Source: Sipunculus nudus (taxonomy: Eukaryota > Annelida > Sipuncula > Golfingiida > Sipunculidae). Taken from it: a stretch of DNA of 64,000 nt. Every line of letters begins with the position of its first letter. Within the stretch, counting starts at the first letter, position 1. Under the pieces are notes generated by a model. The model was not told where the DNA came from and did not search any database. It saw only the letters and a list, made by a program, of their open reading frames with translations. Made by a program: the position numbers and the translations under genes. Location of the stretch: NCBI GenBank assembly GCA_026874595.1, contig CM049319.1:5298601-5362600 (forward strand). Direction: 5' to 3'. Positions 18,870 through 44,431 of the stretch are shown piece by piece.

Positions 18870-21800
18870 GTAATGTTCTTCTTCATCTAACCCCCAGCGC
18901 CATCTAGTGATGATTAATAAACATTCAAACATGCAGGGTAAAAATATTAGGCCTGTGACTTGTGATGAGCCTTAGGATAGATTTGATAATCGACTCTCAT
19001 ACCTTTCATTCAATTCTCGAATTCAGTATTTACTTTGTGGTAAATTAAATAGTCTCCTTTTATTTAAAAGCAAACATTTTACCACCATGTATGTAGGTTT
19101 ATTTTAAAAAGTAAAATAAAAACAAGTTTATCTCCACCATCCTTTTCTGAGTGAGTTGAATGGTCTAAAGGTGAGTGTTGTAAGTAGATATAGGGCAAAT
19201 GCACAATAAATAGTCTCAGCAAGACGGTGTGCTCTGTCAAATTTGACAGCTCACACAGCCCGTGTGGTATAAATGCAGAAAAGAAACAATAATCAAAAGG
19301 AATAAATTCTGAGGTTACAGTCAATTACAGTTTAATCGAGGGGTTACAATTCAATGCAACATTTATTCAGTGCATTTTTAACCCCTAGAAATAGGCTATA
19401 TATACAGCTTGGAAATTGAAGTGTCTTGTAAAAACTAAGCATACATCATGTCTGGTTGATCATGCACCACAAAAAGAACTACCACCATTTATGGGGATGG
19501 TTGGCTTTTATGTTACCGTGTAGTGTCATCTTTTCATTTTGTTTATCAGCAATATTTGATATTTCCATAACATTTGGCTATTTCTTTTTACCTTTAACCA
19601 TCTGCCTCTCTTTAATTTGAAAAAATGTCTTATGCTTGTTTTTTGTTCCCCGTTTCTGTGGACGGGGAACATTGATTTAGGTTTTTCTGTCTGTCCCTCT
19701 GTCTCTCCGTCTGTCAGGTTTGTTTCGGTGCAATAACTTTCCTAAATATTATCCAGTTTCATTCAGATTTGGGTTAGTAATTGCTCTCATGCATACCTTG
19801 GTTGGGATAGGTTTTGGAGTGTTTATCTGGAAAATAATTCTCTCCAGGTCAAAATCAAAATTCTAAAACTTTGTTCCAAATTCTCAATGTGTTTTAGTTT
19901 TTATGTTCCTCTGCAGATGTCTCAACATGTCATAGTGGATAGACTGGCCCAGTCCGTGAAAAAGTTATGACTTAATTGTTGCTTCTGACAGAGAAATCAA
20001 ATGTTCCTGCATTGTATCGCACTTAGTATCATTACCACCATCTTGTGGCAATTCATATAACTAATTTACCACTATCTGACCCTCTTATTTCTGAAAGTCA
20101 TGGCCAGTTGCTGGATGATCAGCGCCACACATCACCGCCTCACTAAACTAAGGTCTTTTTTTTAGTGACATCAGCAGTGGTCTTTCCCAGAATCTTTTTC
20201 AAAACCAGCATGGTTCATTAAGTCATCGCCTATTCTGGGCTTCTAATTTGCTACTAATATTTCCATTTAATTAGTCTTAATGTTTTTTTGGCCGTGGCTT
20301 ACGTTTAGTTTTGCAAGACTTGAAAACACTATAACCCTCCGCCTCAGTGTTAACTCTTGACTGTAGGCCTAACAAACTCTGGCACAGCCAATCAGCTTGA
20401 GATATTTAGGTGCACACGCAACAGGCGCAGTCAAAAGGTACTGGCTGACTGAAACGATCACGATTTGGAAGTCACAATTTGACAGTTAATACACAGGTTC
20501 AGACAAATGCTGCCAGCTGCTCTAGTCATCTCGTCAAATTTACTGGACCTATCAGTACAAAATTGTTGCGACAGAGTCTACAATATGCACTTACATTTGG
20601 CCCATGGACCATAATATTTGTTAAGCAGAGATACATCATAGGAGACGAAGGTCTATGTGTGGAATGCCTGAATACATGATTTCAGTGTGAATGTTACCAA
20701 GCAGGTAAGCGGGTCAAACTATTGGACCGCTGTTGGCATTCTCATAGCAACGATGCTGCTCACATGAGGCATGACAGCCTGAAATGTAAATATGGAGGAA
20801 TCGTCAGGTCTTCAAAGAGCCTTATGACACCTTAATTTATGCAAATATCATGGATTCACCATACAGACTTTACAGGGCTTTACTGATAAGAGCTGGCACT
20901 GAGTTAAGTCTATCGGTGCATGGAATCACGTTTAATTTTAAGCATTTTATTAGTAATCGCAAATCCTAACCCAGGCAGGGCTAAATAGTGGATTTTGGTC
21001 CTATTTCTCAATTTATAGTTTTTCATGTTTGCCTGCAGATGTATCCACATGTCAGTGGTTCTGTTTAAGTTTTTTTAGTTGTGCCCTCAAGATTTTCTTC
21101 ACATGTCATAATTTTGGTTGTTTATCAAGCATGAAAGACAACAAGAGCCTAAAGCGGGGGACATTAATTCCACTAATTTGCTTGTTTTTTCAGCCTCTAC
21201 CTGCACTGCCACAGTTGACAGAAATCCGAGGGTCCCCTGACATCTTTGATGGGGATGATGACAGCGACAATCAGTCCACAGCTTCCACAGTGCTGGGGGT
21301 TCAGGTAACTTATTACTTGCTGAATTATTTTCACAGACTTATGGGGCCTTGACTCAGATTTAAGTTCAACAAACTCGGACTCAGTTTCAGGTTATTTTAA
21401 ATTGTCTTTTGTCTCTGCTACCAGTTCAGATCGGAGTAACATATTCTGATCATTAAAGTGAGATGATGGGAGAATGTGAGGTAAAAGGAAAGAATGAAAT
21501 TGTAAACCCATGAAGTTCTTGCAAAGCAGCTCATCAAGACTTATAATGTGATAAATTTATTGATGAATATTAATATTCAGCAGGTACACTTAGCTGTCTT
21601 TGAATACCATTTGTTAAGATTTTCTATAATGCAGGGTGAAGAGCCAATAGAGATTGATGATGACGTGTCAGATAATCCAAGTAGGCCAGCATCACCAGTG
21701 CCTCCTACTGGAACACCAGATGAACTACAAGCTCAGACACCAGATGGTGCTGACAGTGCACCTGGTGACCCATCCCCAGCAACAACAGGTGCTGCCCCCC

Positions 21801-24800
21801 AGGAAGGGTCATCAGAACTAACAGTACAGGGACCACTGACAGACACTGCCCAGCAGCCAGTAGCCGTACAGCCAACCAGTGCACCTGCTAATACATCCCT
21901 TAATTCATCAATACTGCAGTTCCAATCACCGAAGAAGATCAAACCAAAATCACCAGAGAAAGATGAAGAGGAAGGGGAGGTATGTGATGGGAGTGGCCAA
22001 GCCTAATTGACAGTTTATTTGTATATGGGAGGAGCTAGGCAAATGAATGACAGTTATTTTGTGGTGGAAGGGGCAATGAAAATAATGACTTTATGCGGCT
22101 TTAATAACTCACAGCAAATTGTTTGAATGACTGCTTTTAGGTAATTACTATAAAACAGATTTTCCTGTATTTGAAATTTACCAGATCCTTAAAAGACATC
22201 CTTTATTTACTGCATGCATTAAGAATTTAAATGTTACTGACAAGTTTAGGTGCCAAGGTCATCTTTTTAATATTAATTATTAAATTTCAAAATGATATCA
22301 ATTGTATTAATTTGATCATATATGCTTTTGTCAACAAGTTCCTTAAATAATATCACTGGTCAATTGATGAGATTATTCAAACTATGTATGTTTGTTCCTG
22401 TCCCTGGAGATTCAATAAAGGTAAGTTATATTCTCACTCAGGGACTTACATTATACGTTGCTGTAGCTTTTGAACATGTCTCACAATCAGCAGACTGGCA
22501 TGCTTGGAGAAGGTCATGTGGTTAACACCCGAGTCATCGTCAAGCACTGCAGTCTTCTGATGAAGTGGTTAAAAGCTACAGCAACATACAATGTTAGTCC
22601 CTGAGTTGAGAATTTACAAACCTTTATGGATCGGATTATTCTTCCCTGCCATCTAATATATGAGTTGTTACTATTGATTCACTTGTTTATTTAGTGACAT
22701 AAGTTCATGTTATATTTTATCTGTTACCAGTGTTGTCCAATCTGCTTTGAATCGTGGACCAACTCGGGGATTCATCGTCTGGTTTCACTCAAATGTGGTC
22801 ACCTGTTTGGACAAAGGTAATTCCCGTGATTCTACATGTGTGTGTGTGGGTGTGTACCAGTGGTGTGCCAGTTAATCATTTATCTTGATGATGGGTAGTT
22901 TTCTTTTATAATTGATTAAATTGGTTGTATTTTTGCATAATTGATCTCAAACGATTTTGTATGTACATCCAAAGAAGTCATATGAACCAGAAAAAATATG
23001 CTGACCAAGTCAGTGGGATAAGAAAGACTGGACACCAAGTAGGGAACAGCATTTTCCCAGTCAGCTCTTTAAAAAATATCTCTAACAATTAAAGAAAAAA
23101 ATATTGTCCTTGCAGATTGTTAGTTTCTAATAAGGAATTTCATGTTGTCATATGTCTTGTAATTGAAGAATTGAATATTTTCTATTTGTAGTTGTATAGA
23201 GAAATGGCTAAGGGGCCAGGGTGGAAAATGTCCTCAGTGCAATGCTAAAGCTCAACGCAAAGATATCCGAGTCATATATGCCAAAGCTCTTAAGGTAAGC
23301 TTTTTCTAAGAGGCATGATGCATCACATTGAAAATACAAAACTTAATTAGTGCTTGGAACTGCCTGTGTTTATTGTTTCTTTATCTGTCATTGATGACTG
23401 AAATGAAATGGCTATATTTATGAAACTGGCTATATTTATTGAGTAGTCTTTGTACCACTAAAATTTTGAATTTGTGTTTCTGTAAAAACCAGTATAGTTC
23501 AAATACTGGTAACTTTTTGTGTAATTTTTCTGTCTTTCTCATTTGTTCAAACAATATTGTAAGGTATTCATTCACAAGTATATGATTGTAGTGTAAAAAA
23601 TTATATTTATATTATAATAATATTATAATATATTCAGCCTGATCACCTTCAGAAATAAAGGTTAAAGCCTCGTTTAACTAGATCTAGATTTCGACTTGTT
23701 TGGTCTCTGTTGTAGTAAGATCTGCTAGCAAAGCGTTTGTATGTCATTTGAGACATTTAGACATTTCAGATACTTATATTACCTGAAGCAGAGGGCTGTA
23801 TGGACATTGATAAATAAATATACTGTAGATTCAGATAATATCGTGGGCTTAAAATTTCGTGGTTTTTGTACAAACCGCATATCGTGGGGTATTTGAATTC
23901 GTGGACAGACAAAGAAAACTTTAGGAAATTATGTTTATTAATACCGCCATGTGCGCAAGGAAGACGAGCCCGATGTGCCCAGGTGGTTCGGCTTTGATGC
24001 TTATCACAAGGTGCGCCTGTACCGCGGTCAGTCGGGTCAGTGTTGAACAAACATGCTCCGCCCGACCCGTGCCTAACAAAGAATTAATCAGCCGTGACCG
24101 ACACGTGCCGGGCGATACATCGGCTGTTAGTTGTAACACCCCATACATCGGCTATCAGTTGTAACACCCGATCACACCACCTTCACAGAAAACGTAAACC
24201 ATCACTTGACCGGAGGAAAAATGATACGGGACCGTCCACATGAAGGTTTTAAACTTTTTTTTAAATCTAGGCGGTAGTCACATGTGGCGCCTGTAAATCC
24301 CTGACGGGGCGGTGAGACGAGACACGGTTCGTTCGTCATTCATCATGTCAGCTATATTTGGAGATTATAAAGAAATAATTTTCCTAATATAATATACTGT
24401 GACGCTTACTGACGCTAACATATATGTACAACTATCGGCAATATTCGGGAGAGTTACCGCCTGTATGTATTTTTATTGGCTCACTGTTATGCACGCAAAT
24501 GTTGTCGTCATATTCGGAATAAGTGCGGTTATCGCGGTAATGCAAATGAGTTTACACGGCCCTTGTATTTTAGGCCAATAGGTAGCGTAAGTCTCGTTTA
24601 ATCTCTATTGAAAGAAGGATGAAAAGGGTGGTTCCGAAAAAGCGGCGCCTCGATAGCTGTGGTTACGAACATTGGAACCTGTGTACCGTTCTTGGCGTGT
24701 CAGATCTACCGCTTTGCACGACAAAAATGTGGTATTGTTCTTGAATTTTTTTCACCCGATATGTTAATAAGAGGAAATGTGGGGATACGTTTTCAGTTTA

Positions 24801-27800
24801 AATTACAATTTGATATTGTTTTATTTTAAAGATATCAGGGGGGCCGTGTTTGTACGATATAAGGGAAAATAATTCAATTGACAAAAGAATATTTATAAAT
24901 CCCGTATTTTTATAGTAATTTACGAAAAGCAATTCATTGCATTTAATAAATGTATCAAAAACAATCATAAAATAGTAATAAACAATTTTTGATCTTTATT
25001 GAAAATTCAGCCAGCGGTAACAATTATATATATAAAGTTGACCACCAGCTGCCGTTAAGATACCGTATTTCCTTTGACCGTATAATTTTTTTATCGTTGG
25101 AATCATGAATTTGTGGATTATCTTGATCCACGAAAACCACGAAAATAAAATCCCAACTAATATTTCTGAATCTACAGTATCTTGTTATTTTAGTTGAATT
25201 TTACATGTGATAATAATATTCTTTTCTCTTTAAGGTACATATGTTGATCAGATGTTGAGTTTATGTATAAAGTTGGTTTGCTTTAACAAGAGTACAAAAT
25301 TCTGATGGAATGTGTATTTTTACAGCATTGATACTATTTTCAGTCAATAGATACCACAGAGAGAGACAGAGCTCTTCAGGATTTGGAGAAAGAAAAGGAA
25401 GCTCGACGCAAGGCGGAGGTGGAGGCAGCACAGGCTCGGCTGAGATACCAGATGGCCATCGACGAGTGCAATAAACTGAAGCAGGAAATAGAACGACAGA
25501 GGCAACAGTTACAAAATATAAGGTAGAATGGACTGATCATCCCTCTGTTTAATTATGCAGAATATTAAATGTGTGAAAATACTTCCTTCGTCTCTAAGAA
25601 ATTTTGATTTTATACAGTTTGACGGTAGCGACACCTGTTTAGTGACTAAGATTCCTTGTCAGAAGTAAAATGTCTCTTTGATTAAAGTGTACGTGTTTGC
25701 CTCGGCTCCAGCTGCAAATTTAAATCAGTACCATTGTTGTATTTGCTGCAAGCTGTTACTAGGTTTCTGGGAATCTGACTCGCTCTGCTTTTCATCAACC
25801 ATGTGCGAATAATGCTTAGTATATTCTGTTTCCTATAAAAATTACTATTCGGGGTAAGAAACTTTAAATTGCATCAGCCACTTATTGCTTTAATGCCAAC
25901 AACAGTTCCCTTTATTTCCCATCCTATGAGACTAAGAGTATTAACCTTACAGTAAGTCGGTATTAGAAAGTAACCTTTAAATCTTCTTACAACTTGACCA
26001 TATCAAAAGTAATCAATGAAGATCTGCCTACAATTTGGAAGTTTCATTGTTTTAATATTACCTTCATAAAGGAAATTATGTTTTCACCCATATCTGTCTG
26101 TCTGTTTGTTTATAAGCAAGATTAATCTAAAAACCATTGAATTGATTTCCCTGAAACAGGAGGGCTGGGGAAATGTTGTAAAATTTAGCCTTGTAGGGGT
26201 GTTGGTTTTTAATTTGTAATGTTGTTGAACTGTTGGATATTGATGACTGCTGCAGGAGTGCAGGTTCTGCTGCAGCCTTCACTGGACCCAGTGCCACCCA
26301 GCAGTCACAGAGCGGGAACAAGACGGTCTACGCAGCTCATACAAACATAAAAATATTTGAGGTAAGAACAAAATGACACGGAACATTCTTTTTCATCTCC
26401 ATACAAAATACCTGTATGTGCATAATTGTGTATCAGCTGAACCATATTAGAGTTAGTTGTATTTTGTGTACTAAATGCGGGGGTACCACCACAAGCTGTC
26501 AACACGATTGTTGATACACCTGGGATCATCAGGGAGGAACTCTTATACAGTGAAACTCCTCTGAGTCAGACTCTCAAGGGACTGCAGGATTTTGTCCTGA
26601 TTAGGGAGTTATCCTGAATAGAGTAGTTGTGTTAATTTGTCATTTATTAAGACTGGTATTTTAATTAATTGTACATTTAATTTGAAATTTATAAATTATA
26701 TTTAAAGGGGCCCAATCACATATAAAGCATGTTGAATTGACACGAAAAATAACTTCTTTCCTTTAAATTAAATTTTTGCCTGCCAAAATATTGCCCGGAA
26801 ACCGTTTGCTTACTCCTGGAAACGAGTGTTAAAAACAGTGGACCGAGCGCAATCACAGGTGTCAACATAAACACAGCGTGTGCAGCGTCCGGTTCACAAC
26901 ATGTCAATCAAAAGATTCCTTGACTGACTTGGCCCAAAAAAATGCAGTACCTGTTTCTGCTGGCTGAAACATCACGTGTTGCGGGTCACAATCAGACCTC
27001 CGGTCATGCGGCCTTGTTATGGTAAACAGACCAAGGTTGACCGTGTTTACCAACAGGCAAAACAATAATAACAAGCTGTTTAACAGCCGTATACAAGGTT
27101 TTTGAGACTAAATGCTGGTTTTGCTGGAAAACTTTGTACAAAGCAAAACTGAACTGATAGTGTGAAATAATAGGCATAATATTGCTCCTAATTATGTCCC
27201 TTTCAGGTGTATTCTGAAAAGATTAAATATATATGTATAAGTAATATATAATTATTTATATATATATATATATATATATTGTAAAATAAATGAAGAACAT
27301 GAATAAGAATCTTGAGCTGTGGTCATCGAGATCATGAAGCAAAGATAATTAAAACTCCGAAAAATCTACAGCCTTGAAGTTGATACAAACAACCTTTTAA
27401 TGAATCATGTGAGGAACGCCTCACCACACATTTGCTGCAACAAAGTACAAAATGTTGCTGACTAATTAATGCTAACTGTGCATGATGCTGATCACATAGC
27501 ACGAGTGGTAGTCTTTGGTGGTGGTCTTGTTGAAGAAAAAGCCGTATGAGACCCTACAGTTATTTTGTTTGGTTGGCTGGCCAATCCTAATTGAATAATA
27601 ATTGTGAAGTCTACACACAATTGCGAGATTTCTGAAATAAACTAAGGTTTCGAAGTATATTCACATGTAACATATGATGGTTCACCAAATTACACTTTTC
27701 CTTTGGCTGTTGTTTTGACCAAAACAGGTCATACGAGGACATTACCTCGGAGTGCCTTATCCCGGCAGAAAAAAATAGAACTTGTGATGTCTGTTCACTT

Positions 27801-30800
27801 CAGAGGGTCTAATATGTACTGGATACGCAGACGGGATGGGAAAGTTTGTCCGTTGTCCGGGATAGTGAGTTGTCCGCTTTACTGAGTTTACGTTTAACAT
27901 AATATAGAGGCAAATTTGAAGGGACTGAGTGTCCGCATTAGTGGGTTGTCCACCTTACTGAGTTGTCCGCAAGTAGGAGTTATACTGTATCTGCTGTTTG
28001 TAACCTTAATATAATCCCTTGAACCTTTTATAAAAATAGACCAAAAACTCTCATTCCACCACACACAAGCTTTTCTTTCTGTTTATATCCATGTTGTTAT
28101 AACGTGGGGGCCAAACATAATAATCCTAATGCACTCAACAAGGACACCCTGGCAGCAGGTCAGACAATCCCTGCATTTTGCAAAGGGTGTTTTGCAACAT
28201 TTCAACTTCTGCACATATACTACCAACCATTTTAAGTGACATGATTTTCTGTTTGTCATCATTGGCACATGCACTGTGTTTACCGTAAAATCTCCACTTA
28301 AAACCGCACTTCCTATTGAAACCGCACCCAGACTCCACCGAAATTCCAGGTGAGACACCGCAAGGGGCTCAAATACTAAGAACCCCCCTTTGAAACCGCA
28401 CCAACTTTCGCTACGGAATGATTTGACAAAAGACACAATCAAGCTATCATCTAGAAATGAACACGCGTAGGTTGCGACTCGGCCATTCCTGTCCACTTTA
28501 AAATTCCTTGGGCATTTTATTTAAACACATCATCACACTTATTTGCAGGGTCACTCAAGCATGAAGTTTGGGAAGACGTAAGGGCCGGTGAACCTCTGCC
28601 TGTTTATACAGATTTTATATTCTGTGCCGTATTCTTGTTTGCTACTGTTTGGTCATTATATTTTTGAAAAAATATTCTGCTGATCCATTTCAAGTTACTG
28701 TATATTTTAATTCTAAAAGTAATATTTTGAAATCTTAATCTATGATGAAAATTCCATTTTCTGGAATTACTCGGAAGATTCAAATCATTTTCATACCGGT
28801 TACTTCGGTCACATCGTACGTTGACATCCATCCATGTCACAATTTGCTGGTGCATTTGAAAACATCGCTGGTCAGCTTAACTAAATATCAAAGTAACTGA
28901 AATCACCTTGTCGAGATACGCACGTATAGGAAACATGACGCTTGAAAACGAGTGATTTTAAGGTAAAATAAAGTGGCCAGTCGGGGTAAGCAAGTTTTTT
29001 CCTGAAGAAAGTTTCCATGCGGGGAGCCATTTTGTCAAGGCAGTGTTCGCGCAAGGCACGCTGGGACGAAATAGGTGGCTGTTCTGTTTACCACCCACCG
29101 CGTACAGCCGTTCAAAATAAGCTTAGCAGAATACCGGGGCGTTTCAGCACATGGCGGCACTCAAACTTGATTTTAAACGATCGTCTGCCATTGTGTGACT
29201 CTATACGATAACAGCTTTTTGTTCATTTAACGTTTTAAACAAATAATCATTGCTAAATAATGCCGCAATTCGCGCAAATGGGTTTAAAGTAGGCTTTTAT
29301 TTAAATTTTGCTTGACCATGCCCAACGAAATGGACCGCTGTGTGTTACAGCAGGGTTGTTGTAAACGTATTATTTGGTGACAGTTACCAATATTTTATAA
29401 CAAGTTATATATCACACGAAAACTAATCAGCAATATTTAATTTATAAATAACAAATAATCGTAAATAATACATTTACACACGGCTCCCATGCATGCGAGA
29501 CTGCTGCTAACAACGGCCTTCGAAAGTTGCAATATTATCGCCCACTCGTTGGCCAAAAAACGATGTCTGTCAGGAAGATATTCAGGAAACCCTTCTAGTA
29601 TAAACCGCACAGTGCTTTCAGGAAATCAACCTGATTTCAAGATTTTGAATTTCTTGATTAAACCCCGGTTTTAAGTGGAGATTTTACGGTACTAACACCT
29701 AAACAAGCTCAGACATCCATCACAGAGGCGGTATAAGAACTTTTCTTGACAGGAGTAACCTCTAGTTCATTAATATGTATGCAGAGTAAGCTAGAAATCA
29801 CATAAATTCTACAGATACAGCAGTCAGCCATGTGTGTCAGAACAAAGACTGATCAGCTTGGCCTTTTGGAAAGGCCATCAGGACTGGCTCCCTAGATTGG
29901 CGATTCTAGCAAAAAATCATTTAGAAAGTCCAGCGTCATCGACACCAGTGGAAAGAATATTTAGGTTTACGGGCAAAGTGTTCCCGTCTGACAGATCCTT
30001 AACTGACAAAAAACTTGAGTCTATGATATTTATTAAATGCAATTTAAAATGCTTAAATGAATTGGTCGAACTAAAGATAAACTCAAGGTGAGTTTATCTT
30101 ATTCAATCATCTGAAGATTAGCTCACTCTAAATCACACATGTCTTGGGTTTGCTGGCAGTCATAGCCCAGTGGGTTCACTAAATACTCGCAGGAGGTTTT
30201 TTCACAACCTATACTCATTTTATTGCTGTACTATAATGAAACGGTGAACTCAAGGTGAACTAGCAGAATATAGCAAAACACAACCCTGCACAACACATAA
30301 AAAATGGCATACCTACAAGTAGATAGACACCAAAGAGGATAAACTACTTATAAAACTGCAAGATTGTTTAAGTTTTCTTTATCAGTAAATATATGCAGAG
30401 TTTTGGATGACATCAGTGTTGAGCCGAATTCAAGGTAAATTAGCAATGGCACTGTGTGTTCCCTTTTATGCTGTTTTCACATGATCTGGTTAAGTTAACA
30501 AATTGGCATGATTGTTGTGGGGTCAGCTTATAAAGGGAAGATTTGATAAGGATAATTTTTCATGGAGTCTACAATCTAGGTCTTCATTCTCATTTTCTGT
30601 AAAGTGTAGGACAAACAGTTACATGGTTTCCTACATTTGATGTTGTTTTACAGGCTGGAGGTTGCCGTGTGATGGCCTACTGCTCTCGCCTTGCTACTCT
30701 TCTTGTTTCTCAGCCATCTGCTAGTCCTCTCTTCCCAGGGTTTGGGGTGAAAAAAGTGAGTAATATATAACTCATTTAGGATTATGATTGCTTGAAAGAA

Positions 30801-33800: not shown

Positions 33801-36800
33801 ATTTTTCAGTTCAATTTTAATGATAAAGAAGTAAATTTTATTATTCATTACTAATCATTAGGGATCATATGAAGGAAATTAGACAAAGATGCAGTTGATA
33901 ATATTAACCTAGATTCCTGCTGTGTCTAGTGTGTACATTGATGTGAAATTAGTCCAAAATGAATTTTTTACAGTTATTTTTAATATAAATAAAAGCCATA
34001 AAACCAGGTACTTATGATCATTATTTAAATGTGTGAATTTTGTATATTCTGGATTCTCAACATCATTGTTTGGTGAAAACTGAATAAATTCCAGACATGG
34101 TGCAAATACTTTGTAATTGTATTTAAATACGAATATGATTTTGTACTCCATTATAAAATTTCTTGCATAAAGAATGGGAATTCAGGTAAAAATGAAAATA
34201 TATGAATACTTGTGCAAATACTTTCAAAATGTATTCATGAATGCATTCATGAATATATTCTTTAATATTATTTTAATAATCATATCAGTTATATTTCATT
34301 TTAAAAAATCATATGATTCTCTTATTATTTTTAATAAAAAATTATATTTGGGACAATATTTGTATTTTTTTTAATAAATAGTTAAACTCTTATATTATAT
34401 GTTCTGCTTATAAGTTATATGGCCAAGTCAAAATCTGTGTGACAATAGTACTCCATTTGTTAATAAAATAAATGAAATCAATCCTCTTCCCTGTCTCCAA
34501 AGGTACTATCAAAATCATACATAAGCTAAACAACAACTCATAATACAGCTTATATTTATTACCACACAAAACCAGCATGTGCCTCATTTCTAAATAATAT
34601 TTTTTTATCATATATAACAGCTGAGCGTCGTGACCCATAGGTCCCTTGTTTTTCTGTAGTCTTTTGCTTTGATTGCAGATGCAGGGTCCCACTCAAGGTC
34701 ACTGGAAGTCAGCTATGCCAGGGTTTCTGATTTGTTACAGTCACTGGGGGAGATCCCTGCTGTGACAGGTGTACAGTTATTCTCATATCACCACCCCAAT
34801 CATCCCCCCCCCCCCCAAACCCAACCCACCAAGTGTTATGCAGTAATTGTTATTGTTTTCACTGTATCTCCTTAATTGTAATGCTGTTTCCACTCCGATA
34901 TGCAAAAACTTTCACTGAAAAAATAATTCAAGGTGTAATCCAGAAGATGCAATGTTGTGTAATGTAGCATTTTTAAAGAAATCAATTTTCTTTTAAATGA
35001 TTTTAACAAATATAAATGAACCCATCAGTATGCTTAAATTATTATAAAATATGAAGCACATTATGGATAAATAAAGACACAATTAAAAATTGTGAAATCT
35101 AAATCAAGTGTTAATCAAGTATTATTTTTATATATTTATTGTTTTGCAGATTTAAAAGATATATTTTTGTGGTAAAAAATAAATAAACATTTGTATGCAT
35201 GATGTGGTGTTATCTGACAAGATTGAGATTTATGATGATGCAATTGAGAATTATTAATCAACTTTTATATTCAGATATATATGTTAAATTGGAAATGTAT
35301 AGAAATATAAACTTAAATTAGAAAATAATTGATGTGATAAAAAAATCAGGATTTAATACAAACATTTGTTCATTATTTTCCTGCCTCAGCAGAATTTGAG
35401 ATCAGGCTTTGTTTGCCCTGTTTAATTTTGTTAATTAGCTATATTTCAACTGTATACATTTCATAAAAAATACATATATATTTGATAATATATATTATAC
35501 AAAAAAATAGATGCAATTGAACAAATGTGTAAACTACTGAAATGTCAACAGTTAATCAAAAAGCCAACTAATGATCATGGTAATAGTACAGATCATTTGT
35601 TCACAAACTGCTCACATGCTTTAGTTTCAACATTAGGAAACACATGGTCAGGTCACAAAATATTTTTTTTGCAATAATTTCTTGCTCATCAATACAAACC
35701 AATCATATAAACCAACCATGGCCTCTATTACCTCTTCCTCTTACACTTTATCTCCATTTGATATTATTTTAGATTTTTACCTTCAAGGTTAACGTCAGCT
35801 GAGCACAGTGACCCATAGGTCCCTTGTTGATGATTTAAAGATTGGTTCTGTGTGTGCATTGTAGTTGTTATTTGTAATTATTCTTAAGGCTTTTTTTTGT
35901 AATTTTTCTAATCTATTTGTGTCAGAACCCCATATTAGGATTCCGTAATTTAATTGGGACAGAATAAGTGTATCATATATGGTTTTAAGTATGTGTATTG
36001 GTAGGTATTGTTTTAATTTATTTAGTACTCCTATGTATTTTCTCCATTAGATATTATTTTAGATTTTTACCTTCAAGGTTAGGGCAGCTGAGCACAGTGA
36101 CCCATAGGTCCCTTGTTTTTTTTACATTTTCATAAACCAGCATTCTAGATGTGAAAATTGTGCATTTGTTTTATACTGCTGGTTAGTTCAGGTGCCTTCC
36201 AGCAGATGGCAGCACACACTTGATTGGCGACTCAATCCCATGTGGGAAGGCCCCTGACCCTCTTCTGATTCAACACCCACCTTCCACTCGTACCCATAAA
36301 AAATGCTTTAATTGCAGATTATTATAGCAAAATTAAAGTGCTTTCTCTTCCAGAAATGCTGCTCAGGGTATTTAATACAGTTTCATGAAAACAGAGAAGT
36401 TTGGCAAAAAATATGTTAAGACCATGTCTTTCTATTGTCTAATTAAAGTACTGGTGAATATGGTATGTTCTTTTTACCATAACAACATTTATCTTTATTG
36501 CCAGGTGAGTGCCTTGGATTTCAAGACAGCTCAGTATGTGTCTGTCCACAGTAAAGTGATCCGTGACATGGCAGTCAATCCTCACGGGTCAGAGGGCATG
36601 ACCTTGTTGACCTGTGGAATAGACAAAACCATCAAGATAACCAATCTGCTCAGTAATAATGTTGTTCAAAGGTAAGATAATTAATCTGCTCAGTAATAAT
36701 GTTGTTCAAAGGTAAGATAATTAATCTGCTCAGTAATAATGTTGTTCAAAGGTAAGATAATTAATCTGCTCAGTAATAATGTTGTTCAAAGGTAAGACAA

Positions 36801-39800
36801 TTAATCTGCTCAGTAATAATGTTGTTCAAAGGTAAGACAATTAATCTGCTCAGTAATAATGTTGTTCAAAGGTAAGATAATTAATCTGCTCAGTAATAAT
36901 GTTGTTCACAGGTAAGACAATTAATCTGCTCAGTAATAATGTTGTTCAAAGGTAAGACAATTTATCTGCTCAGTAATAATGTTGTTCAAAGGTAAGACAA
37001 TTAATCTGCTCAGTAATACCTGGTAATGTTGTTCAAAGGTAAGACAATTAATCTACTCAGTAATAATGTTGTTCAAAGGTAAGACAATTAATCTGCTCAG
37101 TAATACCCGGTAATGTTGTTCAAAGGTAAGACAGTTAATCTGCTCAGTAATAATGTTGTTTAAAGGTAAGACAATTAATCTGCTCAGTAATAATGTTGTT
37201 CAAAGGTAAGACAATTAATCTGCTCAGTAATAATGTTGTTCAAAGGTAAGACAATTAATCTGCTCAGTAATAATGTTGTTCAAAGGTAAGACAATCTTCT
37301 CAGTAATAATGTTGTTCAAAGGTAAGATAATTAATCTGCCAAGTAATAATGTTCATTAATGTGTATGCAGAAACAGCCAGAAAACACATTACTTCTACAA
37401 AAAGAGCAGACCAATAGGTGGCTTTAACTTCCAAATTTTTTAATCTTCCTTAGATATTGCAAGATGCCACAAGCTAATAATACTGTATTATTGTATTACT
37501 TCTGCTGGTTTGTCATTTTGATTTAAAAAAAAATAAGTCATTTTCTTAAGTGTACCAAACTACCATATTAAAATTAGATACAGAATATCAGAAGCTGCAC
37601 TAGCCAGACCTTTGACTGTGCTGTGTTTACAGCTACCAGGCCGGTTTACCTGTGTGGTCTTGTACGTGGAGCGGTGATGATCGTTACTGCTTCTACGCGG
37701 GACAGCAGAACGGTACAGTCCTCATGTACGATATCCGTAACACAGGGGAACATATCATGGAGCTCAACAAAGAGGGGTCAAGGTCACCTGTGGTGTCTTT
37801 GCAGTATGTGCCAAGCAACCCAGATTCTCTTTTCAGGTGATAACTACATAGGATCACTCATATTGAACTGTTAATCTGTTATAGAAGAAAATTGAAAAAG
37901 CTTATCCAACTAGCACAAATTTGACAAAAGCGTCACTGTGAGTAATTAATAGCCTCATTTTTTGTGGAAGGATGATAAATATCCTTGTCACTCTCTTGTG
38001 ATGTGCTGACACAAAGATTTTAAGTTTCATGATTTCATTGCAACTACTGAATATATAAAACAGTGTTGCTCTTTAAAAGTTTAAATGTACACATCACGGG
38101 TAAAATTTACAAAAAAAGTTCCTAAAGGCCAAAAAAATAAAAGGTATGGTTTTCAGGAACCTTCTGCATCAATTTTAACCCCCCCATATCAACTATTTTG
38201 ATTTTCATCTTTCAAGAAGATAAAATAATACATTTTGATAAGAATTTCATGGTTATGTTGTGCTTTTACCTGATTTAAAAAAAAATCTGTTATTTTCATG
38301 CTTTTCCCTTATTTTCACATTTTAATCAAAACACAAAAATAGGAAAATAAAATATCAATCACTCGCACGGAATTTTGAAAAAATGTGCCTGAGAACCAAA
38401 ACTTTTTTTTTTTGGCCTTAGTCTGATCTCATCCACATCCAACTGATGATTTAATATATCTGCAGGTTTTACTTTTCCGGTTATACATACAGACTGATTA
38501 TGGCCATGTTTATTTTGTTCTAGGTGTGGAGGTCTGATTGTTGGACAACTGGATCGGACGTCTTTCTATGAGAAAAAATCTGGAGAGGAGTTCAAAATCC
38601 ATGCTCTGCCACTTGAAGGTAAGGTCACTGTCAAGGTCATTTGCCTGGCTGAAGGTCAAGGTTGAGGTCAGGCATCAGTTGGCATACTAAATTCTTAAAA
38701 AAAACTTCAGATATTCTCAAAGTGGTAACATTAATTTAAAAGGGAATACTAAATAGTACAGACTGTTTCAGCATATAATACCAGTCATAATCATTACCGG
38801 TACTATAAACTGTTAGAAAGAGATAAACTACAAAAAGATAAGATAATGGTTATACTGATATAAGAGATTACACTGAACCTTCAGATGTTTAAACTACTTG
38901 TAAAATTTAACTAAAAGCAAATTTTCACCCATTTATTATCCAAATCACTTTCAAAAACAATTAGATTAATCGAAGATTTCTTATGCACCAGGTAAGTCCA
39001 TTTAATTACTTTCTTCACCATACATGAAGCCTCAGCAGTGTATTATGTTCTTCATTTTACAGAGAAGCTCACCATTAATAGTTTTCTTTGTTTGTACAGG
39101 GAGTCTCATCAGTTTATCATTAGAGCCGGCCACTAGATATTTTCTTGCCACTTTCCGACCAACAACCAAACACCCGTCAGTTAGACACCAGGTAAGGCCA
39201 GGTGTGATCTCACCTGAAATGTAACAAGATATCACATTTAACATGCACAACAGGAAAAATGCTTTCTTTTGTGTAATGCCCAGGTACTAAAAGAACATTA
39301 GAATATATAACCTATTCCTTATCAGAGAAATGCTCCAGCTTGGCATATAGAACCCCTTACTTGACTATATTCTCTGAGGTCAGATATATTGAATATTCTT
39401 TTTCAGATCAATTCCTTTAATGTTTGCTGGCTCACTAAAGTGCACTCTGAAGTGGCACCTAGAGCCCGCTCATATGGCTATATAATCTGAGCTTAATCAT
39501 ATTGTATATTCATTTTCAGATTCCCCCTAACCTAAAGCTAACCCTCTCAGTTGGAAATGTTCTAATTTGTCCAAAATCTATAATCATTGTAAACAGGAAA
39601 GGGTTAACTTAAACTAAAGCAAACCATGTTTGTAGTAAATGTTAAAAAATAAATTAAGATGGAACCAAAGCTGGAACAAGATTTATATATAAGACTGTCA
39701 GAATTTAAAATAAAGGAATGTTGATTAATCTTTGCAGCAAAGGGTTAATTCACAATGTAATTATTGATTTAAATGTACAATATATTTTCACAGATGTGTG

Positions 39801-40387: not shown

Positions 40388-43300
40388 ATATGAATCTTGT
40401 TGGCGCGATAACCCAAAAAATATTTCACGGAACTTTACCAAACTTGGTATATGTATAGATATGGGTAAGAGGACGACGCCTATTTAAAATGAGGTCATGA
40501 CCTTTACTAGGAGAGTGTCCTTGACCTTGAATAGGTCCAATTTTGGGGAAAATCACACAAATTCTTTAATATCTCAAGAAATCTTGCATGGATTTATCCC
40601 AAAATCAAGTTGATGGAAGATCATGGATAGGGTTGTCATGTTCCAGAAACTGGTGGCGCCACCTATTATTCTTTACTTGTTTTCGTGCCGTTTAATACCC
40701 CCTAAATTGCCACCTTACAGCACTGTGAGCATTATAAGTCAAAAACTAATGGACAGATTTCTTTTATATTATGCATATACATAGGTATGGGTTATGGGAT
40801 GATGCTTATTTAAATTGGGGTCATGACCTTTACTATGATAGTGGCCTTGACCTTGAATATTGCCATATATGGTGAAAATCACACACCTCTTATGATATCT
40901 CCAGTGTTGATAGCCATATGGATTTCAAACATGACTTATGTATGGCCCACCACTAAAGTAAGAACCCTATAGGTTCTAGGGTCATGAGGTCAAAGGTCAA
41001 GGTCACTGGACTGGCATTTTAAAAGATACTGTGGATGCATTTTAAGCCAAACTTTCATCCCAGGTCTTCCATCTTGAATATATAGCTCACTTGCCAATAA
41101 TGGATGATCCATATAAATTTTGGGGTCACAAGGTCAAAGGTCAAGGCCACAGGAGCTATCTGTCGAAAAATTAGTTTCTGGATGATAATTCCTGCTTTTA
41201 TTGATGTAATGATTTCAAAATTGACTTATATATGTCCCATTGAAAAAGCAAGACCCAAATTGATTTTGGGGTCATGAGGTCAAAGGTCAAGGTCACAGGA
41301 AATCTCTTTAAAAAGATTGTGGATGCATTTTCAGCCAAACAATTCATCTCAGATCTTTCATCTTGCACATATAGTTCACCTGCCAAGAGTGGAAGACCCC
41401 TATCAATTTTGAGGTCACAAGGTCAAAGGTGAAGGTCACAGGAGCCATATGTCCAAAAATTAGTTTCTGGATGATAATTCCTGCTTTTATTGATGTATGG
41501 ATTTCAAACTTGACTTATATATGTCCCATAGGAAAAGCAAGACCCAAATTGATTTTGGGGTCATGAGGTCAAAGGTCAAGGTCACAGGACACATCTTTAA
41601 AAAGATGTGGATGCATTTTCAGCCAAACATTTCATCTCAGACCTTTCATCTTGCACATAATAGTCATCTGCCAATAGAGGATGACCCCTATCAATTTTGA
41701 GGTCACAAGGTCAAAGGTGAAGGTCACAGGAGCCATCTGTCCAAAAATTAGTTTCTGGATGATAATTCCTTCTTTTATTGATGTATGGATTTCAAACTAT
41801 ACATGTATTTGACCCATTGGAAATGCAAAACCGGAATTGAATTTCGGGTCATGAGGTCTAAGGTCAAGGTCACAGGACACATCTTTAAAAAGATTGTGGA
41901 TGCATTTTCAGCCATACAATTCATCTCAGATTTTTCATTTTGCACATATAGTTCACCTGCCAAGAGTGGAAGACCCCTATCAATTTTGAGGTCACAAGGT
42001 CAATGGTGAAGGTCACAGGAGCCATATATCCAAAAATTAGTTTCTGGATGATAATTCCTGCTTTTATTGATGTATGGATTTCAAACTTGACTTATATATG
42101 TCCCATTGGAAAAGCAAGACCCAAATTGATTTTGGGGTCATGAGGTCAAAGGTCAAGGTCACAGGACACATCTTTAAAAAGATGTGGATGCATTTTCAGC
42201 CAAACATTTCATCTCAGATCTTTCATTTTGCACATATAGTTCACCTGCCAAGAGAGGAAGAACCCTATCAATTTTGAGGTCACAAGGTCAAAGGTGAAGG
42301 TCACAGGAGCCATCTGTCCAAAAATTAGTTTCTGGATGATAATTCCTTCTTTTATTGATGTTTGGATTTCAAACTTGACTTGTATTTGACCCATTGGAAA
42401 AGCAAGACCGGAATTGAATTTGGGGTCATGAGGTCAAAGGTCAAGGTCACAGGAAACCTCTATAAAAAGATTGTGGATGCATTTTCAGCCAAACGATTCA
42501 TCTCAGATCTTTCATCTTGCACATATAGTTCACCTGCCAAGAGTAAAAGACCCCTATCAATTTTGAGGTCACAAGGTCAAAGGTGAAGGTCACAGGAGCC
42601 ATATGTCCAAAAATTAGTTTCTGGATGATAATTCCTGCTTTTATTGATGTATGGATTTCAAACTTGACTTATATATGTCCCATTGGAAAAGCAAGACCCA
42701 AATTGACTTTGGGGTCATGAGGTCAAAGGTCAAGGTCACATCTTTAAAAAGAGGTGGATGCATTTTCAGCCAAACATTTCATCTCAGACCTTTCATCTTG
42801 CACATATAAGTCATCTGCCAATAGAGGAAGACCCCTATCAATTTTGAGGTCACAAGGTCAAAGGTGAAGGTCACAGGAGCCATCTGTCCAAAAATTAGTT
42901 TCTGGATGATAATTCCTTCTTTTATTGATGTATGGATTTCAAACTATACATGTATTTGACCCATTGGAAATGCAAAATCGGAATTGAATTTCGGGTCATG
43001 TGGTCAAAGGTCAAGGTCACATCTTTAAAAAGAGGTGGATGCATTTTTAGCCAAACATTTCATCTCAGGTCTTTCATCTTGCACATATAGTTCACCTGCC
43101 AAGAGAGGAAGAACCCTATCAGTTTTGAGGTCACAAGGTCAAAGGTGAAGGTCACAGGAGCCATCTGTCCAAAAATTAGTTTCTGGATGATAATTCCATC
43201 TTTTACTGATGTATGGATTTCAAACTTGGCTTTGTTATTGACCCATTAGAAAAGCAAGACCCAAATTGATTTTAGGGTCATGAGGTCAAAAAGGTCAAGG

Positions 43301-44431
43301 TCACAGGAAACCTCTTTAAAAAGATTGTGGATGCATTTTCAGCCAAACAATTCATCTCAGATCTTTCCTCTTGCACATATAGTTCACCTGCCAAGAGTGG
43401 AAGACCCCTATCAATTTTGAGGTCACAAGGTCAAAGATGAAGGTCACAGGAGCCATATGTCCAAAAATTAGTTTCTGGATGATAATTCCTGCTTTTATTG
43501 ATGTATGGATTTCAAACTTGACTTGTATATGTCCCATTGGAAAAGTAAGACCAAAATTGATTTTGGGGTCATGAGGTCAAAGGTCAAGGTCACAGGACAC
43601 ATCTCAAAAAGAGGTGGGTGCATTTTCAGCCAAACATTTCATCTCATATCTTTCATCTTGCACAAATAGTTCTCCTGCCAAGAGGATGAACACTATCAAT
43701 TTTGAGGTCACAAGGTCAAAGGTGAAGGTCACAGGAGCCATCTGTCCAAAAATAAGTTTCTGGATGATAATTCCTGCTTTATTGATGTATAGATTTCAAT
43801 CTTGACTTGCATATGTCCCATTGGAAAAGCAAGACCCAAATTGATTTTGGGGTTATGAGATCAAAGGTCAAGGTCACAGGACACATCTTTAAAAAGATCA
43901 AGGTCACAGGACCAACATCTTCAACAAGATTGTGGATCTTTAGATGGAATAAACAATAGATATGCCAAGTGTCAGTATATGCTGCTAAAAATGGGGGTCT
44001 GTTCTTGTAGGAGGGGGGCCTACTATGGCTGGGGATACTCTGGTACCTGCGGTGCCAAGAAATGTCTAGTTGTATTTGTGTGCTCTGATTATTTCTCATG
44101 TACATTGATCAATAACAGTGTTTCATACTGATATTTCTAATCTCCATATTCACTGAAGTCATTACAATTATACTTATTGATTTTATGTTTGTACCAAATC
44201 TAAAACAATCAGTTCTGTTTTAAGACGCTATCACTATCAGTCATCATGGCTCTTTGGTCATAAATGTATGTATTCTTTCAGGTTCAAGTATGGGATGCCA
44301 GCAATGGACATCTGAAGCAAAAACTGCCGATGCCAGGGCCTGTGGTTGACCTTTGCCCTTTCACTCACAATGACACTAATTATCTTGCATGTTTGACAGA
44401 CAAAATGGTGCGTGTTCATAAATGGTTATAG
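18801..44431 (+). CDS. RFWD3: RFWD3, E3 ubiquitin ligase (gene span, 14 coding exons)
   Basis: RFWD3 is a nuclear E3 ubiquitin ligase acting at stalled replication forks and in interstrand crosslink repair; in humans it targets RPA and RAD51 and is Fanconi gene FANCW. Fourteen exons join with compatible phases into 665 residues, versus 774 in human; the shortfall is in the poorly conserved N-terminus. Residue order: acidic and Pro/Ser-rich N-terminus (1-175), RING (177-220), coiled coil (about 239-297), then a WD40-type C-terminal domain (about 330-665). All introns are GT-AG. Family landmarks are [38 protein letters not shown] and a C-terminal VRVHKWL. The first ATG shown is at 18801; an upstream exon may extend it. 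Repeats fill introns of up to 5.7 kb. Identification is strong; the true start is not settled. Confidence 0.95.
21194..21304 (+). CDS. RFWD3: RFWD3 exon 2
   Basis: 37 codons in phase 0 between TTTTTTCAG and CAGGTAACT. Rich in Asp and Ser ([10 protein letters not shown]), a typical disordered N-terminal segment. Confidence 0.85.
21635..21979 (+). CDS. RFWD3: RFWD3 exon 3
   Basis: 115 codons in phase 0. It begins [10 protein letters not shown], is rich in Pro, Gln, Ala and Thr, and ends with a basic [10 protein letters not shown] stretch followed by DEEEGE just before the RING. It is disordered, with no folded domain expected. Confidence 0.9.
22731..22816 (+). CDS. RFWD3: RFWD3 exon 4, RING first half
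   Basis: Encodes [17 protein letters not shown] and KCGHLFGQ, the first zinc-ligand pairs of the RING (residues 177-199). It ends in phase 2 at an AAGGTAATT donor, splitting the Ser204 codon. Confidence 0.95.
23192..23294 (+). CDS. RFWD3: RFWD3 exon 5, RING second half
   Basis: Encodes [16 protein letters not shown] and a basic follow-on ending in YAKALK. Only one Cys (C205) lies between the GH and the CPQC pair, so the RING shows seven obvious ligands rather than eight. The human protein has the same spacing, so this is a family feature and not damage. Confidence 0.95.
23823..25177. mobile_element. TIR element flanked by TA, in RFWD3 intron 5
   Basis: Inverted ends CTGTAGATTCAGA and TCTGAATCTACAG bound 1355 bp, with TA on each side (23821-23822 and 25178-25179). 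Subterminal CGTGGG and CCACGAAAACCACGAAA words are also roughly inverted. No transposase frame is seen. A TA duplication fits Tc1/mariner-like or related cut-and-paste elements. Confidence 0.75.
25344..25522 (+). CDS. RFWD3: RFWD3 exon 6, coiled coil
   Basis: 59 codons plus two bases. A long charged helix ([20 protein letters not shown], then more of the same) with heptad-like leucines matches the coiled coil that follows the RING in RFWD3. It ends in phase 2 at an AGGTAGAA donor. Confidence 0.93.
26256..26361 (+). CDS. RFWD3: RFWD3 exon 7
   Basis: 35 codons after completing the split Arg codon. A Ser/Gln-rich linker leads into [11 protein letters not shown], the entry to the WD40-type domain. 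Phase 0 at the donor. Confidence 0.9.
26548..27987. mobile_element. TIR element flanked by TA, in RFWD3 intron 7
   Basis: Ends CAGTGAAACTCCT and AGGAGTTATACTG are imperfect inverted repeats bounding 1440 bp, with TA on both sides (26546-26547 and 27988-27989). The right third has GAGTTGTCCGC words repeated three to four times. No coding frame. A (TA)n run lies inside at about 27256-27280. Confidence 0.65.
28282..29690 (+). mobile_element. TIR transposon, copy 2 of the 9-bp-TSD family
   Basis: This 1409-bp segment is the reverse complement of the element at 6454-7839 along most of its length, with the same terminal repeats (ACCGTAAAATCTCCACTT). The bases outside the two ends do not match each other, so the target duplication is lost or the flank has rearranged. 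No transposase frame is seen. It lies in RFWD3 intron 7. Confidence 0.85.
29834..30091 (+). pseudogene. hAT transposase C-terminal dimerisation domain remnant
   Basis: An 85-residue open stretch contains [20 protein letters not shown], then VERIFRFTG and a later [11 protein letters not shown]. These are the hallmark blocks of the hAT family C-terminal dimerisation domain. The catalytic DDE regions and the BED zinc finger are absent, and no inverted ends were found. It is a fossil fragment inside RFWD3 intron 7. Confidence 0.88.
30654..30755 (+). CDS. RFWD3: RFWD3 exon 8
   Basis: 34 codons, phase 0 at both ends. [20 protein letters not shown] and [10 protein letters not shown] match a conserved block of the RFWD3 C-terminal domain. 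Confidence 0.96.
31344..34652 (+). mobile_element. hairpin-ended tandem element, Helentron-like (family 2)
   Basis: Two units begin at 31344 and 32048 with a near-perfect hairpin (AGCTCAG paired with CTGAGCT, extended inward by TGACT/AGTCA). A CCGTCCGTCTGTCCGT tract follows each. A degenerate third unit starts near 32819. The element appears to end near 34652 with CGTGACCCATAGGTCCCTTG, a short GACC/GGTC hairpin close to the terminus. Two further copies of that 3' end lie at about 35797-35828 and 36090-36120. No protein is encoded. Grouping with Helentron-like elements is an inference from the 5' hairpin and 3' hairpin plan shared with 40309-44069. Confidence 0.55.
35830..36046 (-). pseudogene. 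non-LTR retrotransposon reverse transcriptase remnant
   Basis: Read on the minus strand it encodes [11 protein letters not shown], then [13 protein letters not shown] and [13 protein letters not shown], the thumb region of Jockey/CR1-type LINE reverse transcriptases. It is closed by a stop upstream and merges into unrelated repeat sequence downstream. Both sides carry near-identical copies of a segment ending TGACCCATAGGTCCCTTGTT, so it sits between two repeat copies. Confidence 0.8.
36505..36671 (+). CDS. RFWD3: RFWD3 exon 9, WD40 region
   Basis: 55 codons plus two bases: [17 protein letters not shown] through [18 protein letters not shown], one blade of the WD40-type domain. The donor at 36672 (AAGGTAAGA) is the first of 17 copies; see the minisatellite that follows. 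Confidence 0.95.
36641..37352 (+). repeat. 40-bp minisatellite carrying exon end and splice donor
   Basis: The last 31 bases of exon 9 and the first bases of the intron are tandemly repeated. The unit is 40 bp (47 bp in two variants that contain TACCTGG or TACCCGG). It reads GTAAGAYAATTAATCTGCTC, then AGTAATAATG and TTGTTCAAAG. Seventeen GGTAAG donors occur at steps of about 40, from 36671 to 37321. Each has the same AAAG|GTAAG context except one with ACAG and one preceded by TTAAAG. Confidence 0.97.
37633..37836 (+). CDS. RFWD3: RFWD3 exon 10, WD40 region
   Basis: Completes the split Ser codon and adds 67 codons: [20 protein letters not shown], then [11 protein letters not shown], a highly conserved RFWD3 block. 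Phase 2 at the CAGGTGATA donor. Confidence 0.97.
38524..38618 (+). CDS. RFWD3: RFWD3 exon 11
   Basis: [20 protein letters not shown] through HALPLE, with a phase 1 donor GAAGGTAAG. It matches the human GGVLAGTLEDASFWE block in position and pattern. Confidence 0.94.
39100..39191 (+). CDS. RFWD3: RFWD3 exon 12
   Basis: [20 protein letters not shown] followed by [11 protein letters not shown], phase 0 donor CAGGTAAGG. It matches the human block with HCLVTYRPD. Confidence 0.94.
39794..39982 (+). CDS. RFWD3: RFWD3 exon 13
   Basis: 63 codons in phase 0: MCELSC, then [20 protein letters not shown] and [12 protein letters not shown]. The donor AGT|GTTAGT is weaker than the others, but the join to exon 14 reproduces the family pattern CTGDEA-x-S-...-WDA. 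Confidence 0.93.
40309..44069 (+). mobile_element. Helentron-like element, copy 2, in RFWD3 last intron
   Basis: It starts with a hairpin made of GTATCCCC and GGGGATAC, followed by a (CCG)n run (about 40355-40388). It ends with the hairpin GGTACCTGCGGTGCC, then AAGAAATGTCTAG, with T on both sides of the element. It encodes no protein. The first 560 bp match the copy at 6421-8771. The middle is a large satellite-like tandem array (listed separately). The 3' hairpin about 10 bases before the end and T^T flanks fit Helentron-derived non-autonomous elements. Confidence 0.75.
41171..43900 (+). repeat. 288-bp tandem array rich in AGGTCA half-sites
   Basis: The phrase TAGTTTCTGGATGATAATTC recurs ten times with one variant (41171, 41459, 41749, 42039, 42327, 42614, 42896, 43177, 43467, 43754), giving about nine full units of 281-290 bp. 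Alternate units share subtype markers (CATATGTCC with TCCTGCTTT versus CATCTGTCC with TCCTTCTTT), so a two-unit higher-order repeat is likely. Each unit holds two clusters: AGGTCAAAGGTCAAGGTCAC and AGGTCACAAGGTCAAAGG. Confidence 0.95.
44282..44431 (+). CDS. RFWD3: RFWD3 exon 14 with stop codon
   Basis: 49 codons, then [30 protein letters not shown] and the terminal MVRVHKWL align with the human C-terminus, which ends in a similar KW pair. The stop sits one residue after the conserved Trp. Confidence 0.97.
   Translation, partial: VQVWDASNGHLKQKLPMPGPVVDLCPFTHNDTNYLACLTDKMVRVHKWL

Follow-up and report, generated by a model that had tools for sequence, protein, structure and literature searches.

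Why should the end of a coding exon, together with a complete 5′ splice site, stand 17 times in a row inside one gene, and which copy does the gene use? The question is raised by the RFWD3 gene of the annelid Sipunculus nudus, in a window of 64,000 nucleotides (the whole stretch analysed: assembly GCA_026874595.1, contig CM049319.1, positions 5,298,601 to 5,362,600), where a tandem array begins at the 3′ end of exon 9. We read the array, with a probability of about 0.7, as an exon-border (splice-donor) minisatellite, a neutral duplication hidden by continued use of the donor on the exon side.

Tandem Repeats Finder places the minisatellite at 36643-37353 of the window (plus strand), with a period of 40, 17.5 copies, 92% matches and a score of 1177. 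A donor scan finds 17 intact AGGTAAG sites in it, whose first intron bases run from 36672 to 37322; 16 of them read AAAG/GTAAGA and one, at 36912, reads ACAG/GTAAGA. Spacing from donor to donor (n = 16) is 40 nt in 13 cases, 47 nt in two and 36 nt in one, and the two 47-nt units hold a similar 7-base insert. The repeat unit consists of the 29 last exon bases and the 11 first intron bases, and beyond the last donor lies a degenerate partial unit. Mean divergence among the 13 units of 40 nt (excluding the three of other lengths) is 3%, and six of 40 columns vary across the 16 downstream units; the variants look clustered, with neighbouring copies seemingly alike, by appearance only. The array makes up 71% of the intron after exon 9 (36672..37632, plus strand, 961 nt). 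When up to three mismatches are allowed, the 29-nt exon tail has 15 matches in the window, against none in 100 shuffles, and a search of the whole genome (1.43 Gb, 153 contigs) finds none beyond the array, which accounts for 15 of 15 matches. A preliminary description of the window had reported 17 near-identical strong donors about 40 bases apart, which holds; its array limits of 36641..37352 are corrected, the exon copy being traceable to 36632.

The same description had assigned the gene to RFWD3 and the array to a real coding-exon border, and both assignments are borne out. A partial gene model built from splice signals has nine exons with one open frame through all joins, and it matches WD40_RFWD3 (PF23419) at 225.6 bits (cut-off 47) and the RING domain PF13639 at 34.6 bits; it thus combines a RING with an RFWD3-type WD40 domain, as an RFWD3 orthologue should. 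Exon 9 (a number taken over from the preliminary description) occupies 36505..36671 (plus strand, 167 nt) between the acceptor ccag/GTGAGT and the donor AAAG/gtaaga, ends in ...CAA AG in phase 2 and is in frame with the flanking exons. Exon 10 lies at 37633..37836 (plus strand) behind the acceptor tttacag/CTACC. Joined at donor 1 (GTAAGA, 36672..36677, plus strand), the two exons align through the junction with the RFWD3 of 6cvz (E 8.3e-30), the junction residues being VVQS-YQAG here and VVQT-YNAG there. Since the protein aligns straight across this junction, donor 1 is where exon 9 should be spliced in a working RFWD3 mRNA. Protein conservation in itself suggests only that a correct mRNA gets made.

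Reading frame singles out the same site. Donor 1 is the only one of the 17 that joins exon 10 in frame, whereas each of donors 2-17 gives CAA AGG TAA, both as had been claimed. The latter reads VVQR and then a stop, at the TAA of 36673..36675 (plus strand). The truncation, placed at residue 423 by the preliminary description, falls at residue 400 of the partial model, in which the start codon and N-terminal sequence are missing. Such a stop is not peculiar to the array, since any retained phase-2 intron beginning GTAAG after AG reads so.

The border also holds what looks like the founder of the array. The last 40 bases of the exon (36632..36671, plus strand) form an exonic copy of the unit, 36 of 40 positions being identical to unit 2 and the last 29 nt being identical throughout, and the 11 exon bases ahead of the unit resemble its intron part (TCAAGATAACC versus GTAAGATAATT, 7/11). 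Within these parts the motif AAGATAA occurs twice, in the exon at 36634..36640 and in the donor region 40 bp downstream at 36674..36680 (both plus strand), as the two arms of a 7-bp microhomology whose distance explains the period of 40. From this we infer, with moderate confidence, that the array was likely born by a microhomology-mediated 40-bp duplication across the border. A slippage or microhomology event between the exon AAGATAA and the donor AAGATAA would have duplicated the 40 bp. The duplication would have been silent because the exon-side donor stays in use, the spliceosome keeping it probably because the 167-nt exon is recognised by exon definition; as an account of donor choice, simple exon definition using the exon-side donor is the cheapest. 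The downstream copies would then become free intron sequence and expand by further slippage, which fits the seemingly clustered variants and the similar inserts of the two 47-nt units, while use of a later donor would lead to the immediate stop and presumably to transcript decay. On such a course no regulatory role would be necessary for the array to exist, and at RFWD3 itself the array is most likely a neutral accident that a strong splice site brought to light. The same birth route would be available to any gene, and recurrence at exon ends would thereby be explained.

Such recurrence was sought across the genome with a pattern of three successive copies of AGGTAAG and with searches for CAGGTAAGT and CAAAGGTAAG; exon ends were called by eye from the flanks. 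AGGTAAG has 3788 matches; those listed, the first 100, belong to seven arrays within 10.2 Mb at the start of contig C1. Four of the seven arrays (L048, L049, L050, L051) begin at a coding-exon-like end. CAGGTAAGT has 406 matches; the 100 listed form 15 arrays on contigs C1-C5. All 15 upstream flanks were read, and among these listed matches ten arrays stand at exon-like 3′ ends (L054, L055, L056, L057, L058, L059, L064, L065, L066 and L067), four do not (L053, L061, L062, L063) and one (L060) is ambiguous and was scored as not exon. For CAAAGGTAAG, with 154 matches, the 100 listed all fall in one long array at an exon end (L052, C4:24479404-24488320), which has a 45-bp unit; within the exon, GTAAGTC occurs one unit ahead of the donor. 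The last 2 kb of this array were read, the remainder being known from pattern matches.

The outside arrays repeat the design seen at RFWD3. An additional copy of the exon's end was found for 13 of the 15 at exon-like ends, the unit being an exon tail of 18-45 nt plus the intron head. The unit measurement accepts only copies that match the exon end, and 14 of 16 arrays, RFWD3 included, could be measured; no period was obtained for L049 and L066, that of SLC22 was measured as 88, twice its true 44, and at L059 the measured copy is without a good donor. Homology of the exon is clear in five of the 15: ABCC2 of the ABCC family (L057, 1.3e-9), mandelate racemase-like/L-fuconate dehydratase (L052, 8.6e-7; ENOSF1 itself 0.016), SLC22/OCT2 (L048, 3.7e-6), 3HCDH_N of 3-hydroxyacyl-CoA dehydrogenase (L059, 1.5e-5) and the thioredoxin fold (L067, thioredoxin, 8.3e-11). 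Interspersed repeats are common to the flanks of some array loci. Splice-donor minisatellites thus seem, on sequence evidence, to be recurrent in this genome.

A control was drawn from single CAGGTAAGT sites, of which there are 15332, compared with 12946 of the reversed word, a difference suggesting that a minority of them are real donors. We took the first 20 such sites listed outside one obvious array and kept 16, leaving out L078, L079, L080 and L082 as lying within repeats of their own and retaining L070, in a short repeat, as not exon. Three of the 16 (L076, L085, L086) resemble exon ends, and no convincing Pfam match was found for these three. The CAGGTAAGT arrays differ from the control at 10/15 versus 3/16 (Fisher P = 0.011); scoring L060 as exon gives 11/15 (P = 0.0038), and pooling AGGTAAG, CAGGTAAGT and CAAAGGTAAG arrays, the only proportion test that L052 enters, gives 15/23 versus 3/16 (P = 0.0082).

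Enrichment of donor arrays by raw counts was considered and rejected. Forward counts exceed reversed ones for AGGTAAG (3788 versus 1265), CAGGTAAGT (406 versus 166) and CAAAGGTAAG (154 versus 2), and the reversed word is an uncertain baseline, as for AAAGGTAAG it has the more single sites (21724 versus 18647). Array-level samples alone were used because the rotated-word control is high and the matches listed come largely from single giant arrays. Nor was specificity for donors upheld. Among the 100 of 370 TTTTACAGG matches listed there are eight acceptor arrays, six of them without a visible exon start; one, L095/L097, was left out, leaving seven, and one of these seven against 10 of 15 donor arrays gives P = 0.063. 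The exon-start-like case (L090/L096, C2:9191700-9194902, minus strand) is an array of the 3′ splice site TTTTACAG that seemingly ends at a coding-exon start, open for 64 amino acids (best Pfam E 0.18), and so mirrors the donor arrays.

Some further repeats came up in these searches. A period-40 array at C1:1888024-1888969 (L014/L046), which shares AAAGGTA with the RFWD3 array, was set aside, no exon being visible there. Of the sites left out of the control, L078, L079 and L080 (C1:1777139, 1784198 and 1793632) share one repeat unit at places spread over 16 kb; L080 looks like a coding-exon end, for which no Pfam or PDB match was found. A 30-bp array on the minus strand (L045, C1:1645403-1647960), with 49 AGGTAAG copies in two clusters, has the unit TTTTGTTTTATAG/GAG/GTAAG, in which acceptor-like and donor-like sites lie three bases apart. 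The rotated-word control met about 15 kb (C1:3897394-3912316) of a 50-bp unit with the donor-like AAAGAG/GTAGGTG.

Several points weigh against reading the RFWD3 array as a hidden neutral duplication and its design as recurrent. The use of donor 1 is deduced from frame and conservation, and in classical work on duplicated donors the intron-proximal site can reportedly win, which would predict the last donor. By chance, a run of at least 7 at offset 40 turns up at 1.03% of random sites in the window, so that the microhomology is suggestive only and confidence in the birth moderate. Similarity of the exon over nearly the whole unit is found in three of the 14 arrays measured (RFWD3, L051, L052). 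Exon homology is weak in two of the 15 outside arrays (L066, DNA-PKcs, E 0.61; L056, PH, 0.016, below cut-off) and none was found for eight (L049, L050, L051, L054, L055, L058, L064, L065). The exon calls were made by eye, unblinded to sample set, and all control sites lie within 2.95 Mb at the start of C1; the control contains three pairs of repeat copies (L068/L087, L069/L072, L074/L075), which when collapsed leave 3/13 and P = 0.030. The AGGTAAG sample taken alone is non-significant (4/7 versus 3/16, P = 0.14). The rotated word AAGAGGT, at 2916 matches versus 1557 reversed, keeps the counts from being evidence that donor arrays outnumber those of other 7-mers.

A bolder reading of the arrays, which we hold to be tentative and rather doubtful, is that donors are preferred birthplaces of minisatellites in this animal, with arrays at a very rough 150-1400 exon ends (a Poisson interval scaled up from four in 10.2 Mb of a single contig), and that the first of the identical donors is picked in gene after gene. 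The donor region might then be a duplication hotspot, or splicing might shield growth, splices between units being silent.

Could the array instead be spliced from within? The frame argument of the preliminary description is sound for donors and overlooks two frame-keeping routes that exist on paper. In silico, a first splice at donor k, followed by one that pairs donor 1 with the AG of unit k, yields the exact mRNA in 16 of 16 cases, a repair that is possible because every unit doubles as an AG/GT site (AGGT is present in 17/17 units). Combinations of a CTCAG acceptor with a donor keep the frame in 13 of 136 cases, also in silico, and insert SNNVVQ or SNNVVH; an example is an 18-nt microexon (CTCAG/...CAAAG/) inside a unit at 36694..36711 (plus strand), whose acceptor has a pyrimidine content of 0.47. 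The array could accordingly be dual-specific or recursive, with AAAG/GTAAG serving as acceptor and donor: later donors would be used first, the extra sequence would be removed by intrasplicing or stepwise trimming, and the mRNA would be correct whichever donor was used. AGGT sites that serve as both have been reported (PMC10809524). The unit AGs look like poor acceptors, with a pyrimidine content of 0.47-0.59, a longest run of 3 and AAAG rather than YAG at 15 of the 16 downstream units; real RFWD3 acceptors have 0.47-0.76 and runs of 2-6, with 8/9 at 0.53 or above, and the weakest of them (0.47, run 2) is no better than the unit AGs. Usual introns, moreover, are longer than the 40 bp that separate the units. 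We rate this possibility low because the unit AGs look weaker than eight of the nine real acceptors.

The copies might also act by their number. The preliminary description had proposed a decoy or length-variable switch, or strong selection for the first donor. More copies would then lower correct splicing in a length-variable, decay-coupled manner or, as a reservoir, bind U1 downstream and strengthen exon 9. It is in keeping with this that all 17 donors are intact and pair equally well with U1 (-9.5 kcal/mol), one of them more strongly (-11.5), and U1 bound downstream of a donor has been reported to affect the exon (PMC5933811). No sign of a decoy or switch was found, nor any of donor selection: with only 6/40 columns varying, intact donors are to be expected in a young array, and the idea that selection preserves the donors was dropped, the variable columns being too few. 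Arrays of the same design stand at functionally unrelated genes. Selection for the first donor is unsupported as well: its accessibility of 0.017 is the second lowest of the 17 (regional mean 0.055), and on that ground structure favouring the first donor was rejected. A role as decoy or U1 reservoir is accordingly quite improbable. That the array is an assembly artefact, or a collapsed or expanded repeat, is very unlikely, prone as tandem repeats are to assembly error, because same-design arrays recur at exon-like ends of other genes; the differences between units are also structured and assembly contigs reach at least 110 Mb.

How does a hidden exon-border duplication compare with known systems? 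Human IFI6 has a minisatellite that provides several splice donors to one gene, two downstream units being reported as used, with three mRNAs (PMC4526556). The RFWD3 array is likewise a tandem repeat with a consensus donor per unit at an exon border; it differs in that each later donor, if used, would give an immediate stop. In the dual-specific splice-site arrays described for UBC and VCX3A, AGGT also occurs in every unit of a genic tandem repeat, but the UBC units are coding, 228 nt long and frame-keeping, whereas the RFWD3 unit is 40 nt with its intron copies out of frame; the same source reports that human introns in tandem repeats are over-represented at lengths that are whole multiples of the unit (PMC10809524). 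Internal tandem repeats at exon-intron boundaries of human duplicated genes (PMC2812944) and intron gain through tandem duplication of exon sequence (PMC2891723) are further reported cases in which tandem duplication near a border alters or hides gene structure; unlike these, the extra RFWD3 copies remain intronic and the intron is not demonstrably new. An 8-bp exon-border duplication in human ATP11A is predicted to shift the donor 8 bp downstream, the first copy retaining only GT (PMC9035003). The nearest relatives among the publications as available to us are thus the IFI6 minisatellite and the UBC/VCX3A arrays, from which the present arrays would differ in having extra donors out of frame and in a design that appears to recur at unrelated genes of one genome. 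A partial literature search on duplicated or repeated splice donors found no report of a genome-wide class of splice-donor minisatellites.

To our knowledge, built constructs have been the main means of studying how the spliceosome chooses between identical 5′ splice sites. If the class is real, its natural rows of near-identical donors in a number of conserved genes, varied in spacing and number, would let the selection rule be read from ordinary RNA-seq; the interest lies in this class more than in the RFWD3 locus, as donor choice would be observable in nature. The arrays also suggest that introns can grow out of coding sequence harmlessly, and genes such as RFWD3 become candidate length-variable loci.

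The rest of the RFWD3 model lies upstream on the plus strand. The first four exons (21194-21304, 21635-21979, 22731-22816 and 23192-23294) and the last three before exon 9 (25344-25522, 26256-26361 and 30654-30755) keep an open frame through their joins; the seven together (21194..30755) encode the RING and the start of the WD40 domain according to Pfam, with an acidic region and a coiled-coil-like stretch judged by eye. Just before exon 9, on the minus strand, lies a retrotransposon-like open frame (35795-36046); this and another minus-strand frame at 14092-15066 resemble, by eye, retrotransposon gag (CCHC knuckles) and the end of a reverse transcriptase. A frame at 29795-30091 (plus strand) resembles the end of a hAT-type transposase, also by eye. 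Downstream of exon 10, at 40917-43898, a 289-bp satellite is present in 10.4 copies.

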